Source of the DNA: Aquificaceae bacterium
Lineage (GTDB): Bacteria; Aquificota; Aquificia; Aquificales; Aquificaceae
Direction: 5' to 3'
NCBI GenBank assembly: GCA_026981975.1
Contig: JALSHV010000013.1
Coordinates: 1-64,000, forward strand
DNA length: 64,000 nt
Shown here: piece by piece, positions 11,215 to 12,398 of the stretch
Layout: every line of letters starts with the position of its first letter
Position numbering within the stretch: position 1 is the stretch's first letter
Notes under the pieces: generated by a model
Told to the model about the DNA's origin: nothing
Database searches by the model: none
What the model saw: the letters and a program-made list of their open reading frames with translations, nothing else
Translations under genes and position numbers: made by a program

Positions 11215-11571
11215 TTAACCTATAGCTTCTTTGAGCTGGGCTTGGGCTTTTCTTATTTCCATCAACAAAAGACCTAACTTCGCTTCATTACTGGCTAAAA
11301 CAGTAAGCACTGCATCTTGTCCTATTCCTGTGAGAACTATATATCCTTCTTCTCCCTTTATGGTTATCTGTTCTAATACACCCTTTTGAAGTTCCTCTGT
11401 TACCTTTTCTCCGAGGGAAAGAATTGCTGCACTCATGGCAGCTACTCTATCTTCCTCTATACCGGGTTTTAATACCGCAGCAATAGGCAGGCCATCAGCA
11501 CTTACCAAAACTGCTCCTTCTAAGCCTGAACTTTTAATGAGTTCCTGCAAAACTTTTTCATATCTGTCCAT
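11215..11571 (-). CDS. roadblock/LC7 domain protein (MglB-like)
   Basis: A 118-residue single-domain roadblock/LC7 protein. It begins MDRYEKVLQELIKSSG and has the GLEGAVLVSADGLPIA strand and an AAMSAAILSLGEKV helix typical of MglB-like regulators. An in-frame GTG at 11610 would add 13 residues, but they lie in the GC-rich structured element upstream, so I choose ATG at 11571. That ATG sits in a small hairpin (TGTCC/GGACA around the codon) with no clear ribosome-binding site. Roadblock proteins act as GAP or scaffold for the small GTPase encoded two genes downstream. Confidence 0.82.
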   Translation of the reverse strand: MDRYEKVLQELIKSSGLEGAVLVSADGLPIAAVLKPGIEEDRVAAMSAAILSLGEKVTEELQKGVLEQITIKGEEGYIVLTGIGQDAVLTVLASNEAKLGLLLMEIRKAQAQLKEAIG

Positions 11572-11590
11572 GGCGGACACACCCAGTTTA

Positions 11591-11683
11591 CCGAACCACC
11601 CTTTCCACACGGTTCGGTGCCGGGCTATTTATACCCCGCCCTGAAAAGGTGTCCAGATACCCGGCAGGCGGCATTTGGACACC
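11591..11683 (-). other. GC-rich structured intergenic element before roadblock operon
   Basis: This 93-bp stretch is about 60% GC in a roughly 40% GC neighbourhood. On the minus strand it can form GGTGTCCA/TGGACACC (11648-11683) with an inner 5-bp AUGCC/GGUAU extension and 8-nt loop, then CCGAACC/GGTTCGG (11591-11617). A 7-bp alternative pairing TGCCGGG/CCCGGCA (11660-11666 with 11618-11624) could compete. A promoter-like TGGACA-16-TATAAA (11628-11655) overlaps. It may be a terminator plus promoter and leader hairpin, or a structured regulatory RNA. No match to a known riboswitch was recognised. Confidence 0.5.
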
Positions 11684-11684
11684 C

Positions 11685-12398
11685 TCATTCTATATCTTTA
11701 AAAAACTTAAGCTCAGCTTCTATTTTTTCCTCAGTAATTATCAACTTTTTCACACCCTCCTCCAATCTGCGGACATCTATTTTATCGCCTTTTTCTTCTA
11801 AAAGTAAAGCTATACTATGGAGTTCTGTGTTCAATTCCGAAAGGAGTTCCTTAATTTTCGTTATTTTAGATCTGTGAATTTCACAAACCTGTTGTATGGC
11901 TTGTCCTATAGCACCCACCGGATCTAAACCTACGGGGAAGTTGGCTTTCATGTAACCCTCTTCCATTTTCTCTAAAGCACTGAGAATTTGGCGTGTGTTT
12001 TCCGAAATGGTATCTATTTGATCTTCCAAGTCCTTTATCTGCCTTTCGTATTTTTCTTCAAAGTTGTTAACCAGATCTTTAATACTGTTAATTATACCCA
12101 GCATTTCTTCATGAATGGGAACGGGAACTACTGTTTTCCCTTTGTGTTTTTCTTCTAAAAGCTCTATTATGTATAGAATTCTGGCAAAAAGTTCTTCTAA
12201 TTTACCTTTTGTCCACATTATATTGAAGAATATCCATACTGTAGATATAAGAAACCCTAGTCCGAAAGATGTGTAAAAACCGATCTTTCCAATAAAGTAA
12301 AGAACAAGGGAAATAAATAGCCCCAGCATGAGCGAAGAAAGAATGTAAAACCTAAGAAGCTCCCCCGCCAGTGATGATAATTTTGGTGTTTCTACCAT
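11685..12398 (-). CDS. membrane-anchored coiled-coil protein, unknown function
   Basis: A 237-residue protein with two transmembrane helices near the N-terminus (about 16-36 and 40-62) and almost no periplasmic loop, followed by a long charged helical region with heptad character, as in the HAMP and signalling stalk of degenerate chemoreceptors. No catalytic or receptor domain is visible. It lies between ilvN and the roadblock/GTPase genes on the same strand and could be a membrane anchor for that module; this is inferred from position only. Confidence 0.6.
   Translation of the reverse strand: MVETPKLSSLAGELLRFYILSSLMLGLFISLVLYFIGKIGFYTSFGLGFLISTVWIFFNIMWTKGKLEELFARILYIIELLEEKHKGKTVVPVPIHEEMLGIINSIKDLVNNFEEKYERQIKDLEDQIDTISENTRQILSALEKMEEGYMKANFPVGLDPVGAIGQAIQQVCEIHRSKITKIKELLSELNTELHSIALLLEEKGDKIDVRRLEEGVKKLIITEEKIEAELKFFKDIE

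Follow-up and report, generated by a model that had tools for sequence, protein, structure and literature searches.

What is the GC-rich, strongly foldable stretch that precedes the gene for a roadblock-like protein in this Aquificaceae genome, and does it belong to that gene? A sequence-only reading of the window (the whole 64,000-nucleotide stretch of DNA analysed here) had marked positions 11591-11683 as a GC-rich foldable element, probably a structured RNA, and had treated it as a leader of a roadblock/GTPase operon. The features to which we refer below all lie on the minus strand and are listed in the direction of transcription.

11685..11687, minus strand: TGA stop codon that ends an upstream ORF of 237 aa and lies immediately next to the element
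11590..11684, minus strand: whole element (core of P1, P2 and P3 plus the P4 hairpin), with BLAST and covariance-model copies in the same genome
11677..11683, minus strand: 5' strand of P1, GGTGTCC, paired in the genome's own copies
11667..11671, minus strand: 5' strand of P2, CCGCC, with a compensatory C-G to G-C change
11659..11665, minus strand: 5' strand of P3, GCCGGGT, found by RNAalifold, with CG/TA/GC exchanges at pairs 2 and 3
11648..11654, minus strand: 3' strand of P1, GGACACC, paired in the genome's own copies
11636..11640, minus strand: 3' strand of P2, GGCGG, with the same compensatory change
11626..11635, minus strand: conserved loop GGTATAAATA between P2 and P3, pattern NN[T/A]ANAA[A/G]TA
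11619..11625, minus strand: 3' strand of P3, GCCCGGC, with the same exchanges, again from RNAalifold
11590..11618, minus strand: P4 hairpin, ACCGAACC..GGTTCGGT, variable in sequence, 3' of the core in most own copies and missing in a few
11580..11584, minus strand: GGGTG, a possible replacement Shine-Dalgarno (SD) sequence, placed by its correspondence to the right end (CCAGGTG) of long copies
11215..11571, minus strand: gene for the roadblock-like protein downstream of the element, ATG at 11571-11569, orthologues 88-96% identical in congeners

A foldable element between two genes

The GC content of the 90-nt bin 11580-11669 was 0.589, against about 0.3-0.45 in the surrounding sequence. The minus strand of the element folded to -57.1 kcal/mol, compared with -41.9 +/- 3.9 kcal/mol for dinucleotide shuffles (z -3.94), and none of 200 shuffles folded as well. 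The plus strand also folded well (z -3.87), so the strand cannot be read from folding alone and is set instead by covariation, G-U pairs and the orientation of the genes. These data bear out the GC-rich element, whose proposed ends fit the stems, and the downstream ORFs (roadblock, a 230-aa protein and a GTPase) are as first described. The expectation that no known riboswitch class would fit also held, as an Rfam search of the window at gathering and relaxed thresholds returned no family at threshold. The best sub-threshold match, to the FMN riboswitch (E 3.9), was judged to be chance.

The core is a predicted RNA of three crossing helices

Sixteen copies of the element from the same genome could be aligned and share the core GGTGTCC-AAAT-GCCGCC-T-GCCGGGT-n-GGACACC-n-GGCGG-GGTATAAATA-GCCCGGC, usually followed by P4 and then by a start codon. 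The strands occur in the order P1 P2 P3 P1 P2 P3, which means that each helix crosses the other two. Among these copies, 97% of pair cells were standard pairs and 14 cells were changed on both sides; the covariation score was reached by none of 500 shuffles. A wider set of 168 parsed elements gave the same picture. P1 helices of at least 6 bp were formed in 98% of them, versus 37% when the partner strands were swapped, and 126 distinct P1 helices of this length were present. For P3, the paired fraction of unique pairs was 0.927, whereas shuffled pairings had a mean of 0.762 and a maximum of 0.813. RNAalifold, which draws no pseudoknots, picked this long-range helix unaided. G-T pairs are common in P3 (T-G in 57 of 168 elements at pair 7, G-T in 11 of 168 at pair 1).

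The first pair of P2 exchanges C-G and G-C in 4 of the 16 own copies and in 32 of the 168 elements; the invariance of P2 is partly by construction, because the search pattern anchored all of it apart from pair 1 and the parser favours well-paired anchors. Four A/T positions of the loop between P2 and P3 were invariant across all 168 elements. Taken together, the compensatory changes indicate that the core folds as an RNA in which three helices all cross one another, as judged from its sequence. Covariation in the 168 elements also links the base that precedes P2 with the second base of the loop (A is matched by A and G by G), possibly through a non-standard contact. Four copies (L028, L047, L121 and L204) have no evident P4, and in some of these a strong SD sequence directly follows the core.

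Much of the original fold can be recognised in this model. The sequence-only reading had called for an alignment in search of compensatory changes and had named a lack of covariation as grounds for refutation; the changes were found, which upholds its structured RNA; its first stem (GGTGTCC/GGACACC) and its second hairpin (ACCGAACC/GGTTCGGT) are both present. The pairing TGCCGGG/CCCGGCA, which it drew as a competing alternative, is real but is the conserved crossing helix P3, and the hairpin that it drew over the ATG appears in the single-sequence minimum free energy fold but is not a conserved part of the element. The second crossing helix, P2 (CCGCC/GGCGG), the abutting TGA and the genome-wide repeats did not figure in it.

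Copies in the same genome and their spread

BLAST placed the element at 16 sites in its own genome (G000), and a covariance model gave 18 strong matches. One copy (G000:C24:39101-39166) precedes an iscA-like gene and has a core 98% identical to that of the window copy over 66 bases. An additional weak match (G000:C13:70436-70503, E 0.008) lies on the same contig as the window, past its end. Near-identical cores within one genome carry different P4 hairpins and flanks, which could reflect gene conversion of the core instead of fresh insertion. Judged by eye, cores are more alike within a genome than between orthologous loci, pointing to gene conversion or repeated insertion.

The covariance model matched 86 of 136 Aquificota genomes, in 23 of 30 genera. 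Outside Aquificota, a DNA pattern scan found the core in at least Fervidicola, Thermovorax, Tepidanaerobacteraceae, Caldicoprobacter, Carboxydothermus, Desulfobacterales and Thermodesulfobacteriaceae; among the matches listed these hosts are thermophiles, including thermophilic Firmicutes. A pattern match in Gluconobacter (L159) was judged to be chance. Viral contigs contained no match to the core pattern, and a phage origin was rejected on this ground. No description of the element was found in the main text of a survey of Aquificales ncRNAs (PMC4227106), nor in an incomplete library of open-access papers. Searches for literature on TnpB or IS605 with SD targeting returned nothing relevant.

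The element precedes start codons of unrelated genes

In four genomes, every copy checked had a start codon no more than 100 nt downstream, on its own strand (74 of 74; 18/18 in the own genome, and 35/35, 16/16 and 5/5 in the others). The distance from element to start codon was mostly 30-45 nt, although single distances may be off as the ORF finder picks one start per copy. The downstream genes, named from their translations, are unrelated and often housekeeping genes (ftsZ, hfq, rpmF, rpsT, ppa, rpoA, rho, fusA, infC, acpP and others), and a riboswitch for one pathway was rejected on this ground. At two loci, neighbouring genes of a cluster each have their own copy: an HdrB-like gene and the adjacent iron-sulfur gene in G050 (L120), and two paralogous genes in G063 (L126).

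We compared this locus with that of congeners. The gene was present in 39 of 41 genomes searched, and the element was absent from the locus in all 16 other congeners examined. Nearly all of these 16 have instead a strong, AAGGAGG-like SD sequence 5-10 nt before the ATG, for example TGAGGAGGTTCGTCAGTATG in G008. Nine other loci of the own genome followed the same pattern when set against G009 and G010, two congeners that lack the element there. On average the longest stretch matching the consensus SD sequence was 4.3 nt in the own copies and 7.9 nt in these two congeners, so the native site seems to be weakened or replaced on insertion. In several own copies the putative substitute ribosome-binding site is weak, and the window copy is among them: its longest match to AAAGGAGGTGATC, at the GGGTG site, is GGTG. 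Because the congeners lack the element and have a strong SD sequence in its place, the window copy is, by this comparison, an apparent lineage-specific insertion at the ribosome-binding site of the roadblock gene. The suggestion that it is a leader dedicated to the roadblock/GTPase operon is therefore not sustained, since the same element precedes unrelated genes and is missing from this locus in 16 congeners; an inserted element accounts for both.

TnpB-type transposons end in long copies of the element

Other genera and phyla contain long copies of the element, and these are the 3' ends of TnpB-type transposons. Long copies have an upstream extension with GGTTAG and a hairpin with the loop C[C/T]TGG, and they end in ACCAGG. 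The ORFs upstream of them matched TIGR01765 and TIGR01766 above cut-off and guided_TnpB partially and below cut-off. A profile of the TnpB-related ORFs matched Cas12f and IS605 OrfB chains, whereas a phmmer search with one TnpB against the PDB gave no match. The predicted structure of a TnpB-related protein (mean pLDDT 74.9, with a low-confidence C-terminal tail) was nearest to Cas12f and TnpB complexes. In selected genomes the element follows 35 of 42 TnpB-related ORFs. The association is not universal, as G051-G056, congeners of G050, have up to 12 TnpB relatives of the same clade and no listed element match; their right ends may differ. Upstream of one solo element, in a Tepidanaerobacteraceae MAG (L185:4591-5496), lies an IscB-like ORF with RRXRR and HNH domains, either a chance neighbour or a second nuclease association. 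A Y1 transposase lies beside one copy (L162), and none was found in four of the eight genomes searched, the own genome included. TnpB-only members of the IS200/IS605 family are known, so the absence of a Y1 transposase is compatible with membership.

Where the left end (AACAGTTG) was found, the host flank next to it was typically GGAGG, and the right flanks were variable. The start codon lies about 3-9 nt past the CCAGG right end, and joining the two flanks of long copies gives a normally spaced SD sequence and start codon. A simple test for a GGAGG-type flank was passed by 21 of 29 listed long-copy cases, and some of the others look like false left-end matches. GGAGG may be host flank or part of the left end; its variation and the spacing fit the former. 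Long copies show the pattern of IS200/IS605 insertions, with a set target motif beside the left end only and no obvious target duplication.

Origin and possible function of the solo copies

These observations led us to the view, to which we give a probability of roughly two in three, that the window element is a mobile RNA element in solo form, descended from the right end of a TnpB-type (IS200/IS605-like) transposon, and that such an element targets SD sequences and leaves a new leader in their place. We suppose that the transposon reads the SD sequence (GGAGG) as its left-hand target motif, which would explain both the position and the orientation of the element. The structured right end would serve as the guide RNA scaffold of TnpB, with the start of the host gene as guide, by analogy with known TnpB systems. 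After insertion the right end (CCAGG; GGGTG in the window copy) may replace the ribosome-binding site, and the insertion would be tolerated because the right end stands in for that site. Solo copies could then be retained as leaders, and at some of the loci their RNA structure is probably under selection.

If so, the apparent target motif of a transposon is the ribosome-binding site itself, and the RNA of its right end lets the cell survive insertions before essential genes. The family would also account for GC-rich foldable leaders before unrelated Aquificota genes. A broader picture is possible, though less likely than not: a previously undescribed RNA class of three crossing helices, RNA-guided and SD-directed transposition in thermophiles, replacement of housekeeping ribosome-binding sites, and conversion of the element into a permanent leader once the nuclease is lost.

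Neither the left end nor the P0/P5 part of long copies is present in solo copies. The own genome has no TnpB of the element-linked clade, no PF01385 match and no Y1 transposase, and contains two weak TnpB fragments only; the window copy is for this reason classed as derived from a TnpB transposon and not as a complete one. G050, a complete genome in a single contig, has 35 solo copies, none of the element-linked TnpB clade, and five other TnpBs with one Y1 transposase. The element fold is kept in G050, and rpoA leaders from two genera within a family retain it too, P3 having changed in a compensatory manner. Selection thus seems to act on the RNA even in the absence of the transposon, and genomes rich in solo copies that have no TnpB of this clade would record the passage of a transposon RNA into a host 5' leader.

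The same data could be read in another way, which we regard as possible though the less favoured: the element may be an exapted cis-regulatory or stabilising 5' leader common to housekeeping genes, for example in protection of mRNA 5' ends or in a global response to a signal or protein. The retention of the fold in the own genome, in G050 and at rpoA agrees with this, as does a TATAAT-like box just 5' of P1 in several copies. So do the common targets: rpmF, hfq, ppa and rpsT are shared by the own genome and G050 (p about 5e-4), and three of the four targets of G008 are shared with the own genome (p about 5e-6), both values resting on a simple model of 1600 equally likely genes. Some targets are shared by genera more often than expected, for which vertical descent or selection would account as well as mobility. 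However, the window copy is missing in all 16 other congeners examined, the downstream genes have no common pathway, and the strong SD sequences of abundant proteins could bias insertion to the same genes.

We consider it unlikely that the element acts by DNA-level folding alone, as single-stranded hairpins read by a Y1 transposase with no role for RNA. Transposases of the IS200/IS605 family are known to recognise subterminal secondary structures (PMC6006769). Yet G-T pairs, which are acceptable in RNA, are common in P3, and three crossing helices with an invariant loop exceed a transposase hairpin; moreover, every copy examined is sense to its downstream gene, and half of the genomes searched yielded no Y1 transposase.

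A far less probable possibility is that the inserted RNA excises itself and rejoins the native SD sequence to the start codon, as IStrons are excised via a group I intron (PMC4227781). Exact removal of a long copy, from after GGAGG to after CCAGG, would indeed restore normal ribosome-binding-site spacing, but no Rfam intron or ribozyme family matched in the window or at seven loci with long or related copies, and solo copies have no intact upstream SD sequence to rejoin. The terminator followed by a promoter that had been offered as the plain alternative has a GC-rich stem between two genes in its favour and is scarcely credible, as no terminator- or promoter-like site lies inside the element, nearby promoter-like sites are no commoner than chance, and a terminator has no need of crossing helices with compensatory change.

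Comparison with known systems

The mobile RNA element that we propose most resembles the guide RNA of TnpB (omegaRNA or reRNA) and the right end of IS200/IS605 transposons. Long copies lie 3' of a TnpB-related gene, are structured and are directly followed by host flank, so that the position of the element fits a guide directly 3' of the scaffold, a function that would be analogous to that of omegaRNA. The left-end target motif without obvious target duplication is a further likeness. The element departs from these systems in that the majority of its copies are solo and carry neither tnpB nor a left end, in that the motif targeted resembles an SD sequence, and in that the TnpB clade matches the zinc-binding TNB domain only in part.

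IStrons, in which IS605 or IS607 is combined with a group I intron (PMC4227781), provide a parallel in that a transposon RNA makes insertion tolerable to the host gene. No group I intron was detected here, and the remedy that we propose is a substitute leader and ribosome-binding site instead of splicing. Riboswitches and cis-regulatory leaders in Rfam are likewise structured 5' leaders with pseudoknots and conserved loops, but the present element matches no Rfam family, precedes unrelated genes and is lineage-specific at the window locus; with its crossing helices, the fold is a strong candidate for a family of its own there. Like MITEs and REP elements, it is short, multicopy, non-autonomous and foldable. 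It differs from them in that the copies examined lie in one orientation just before start codons and have a crossing-helix RNA fold that is conserved across phyla.
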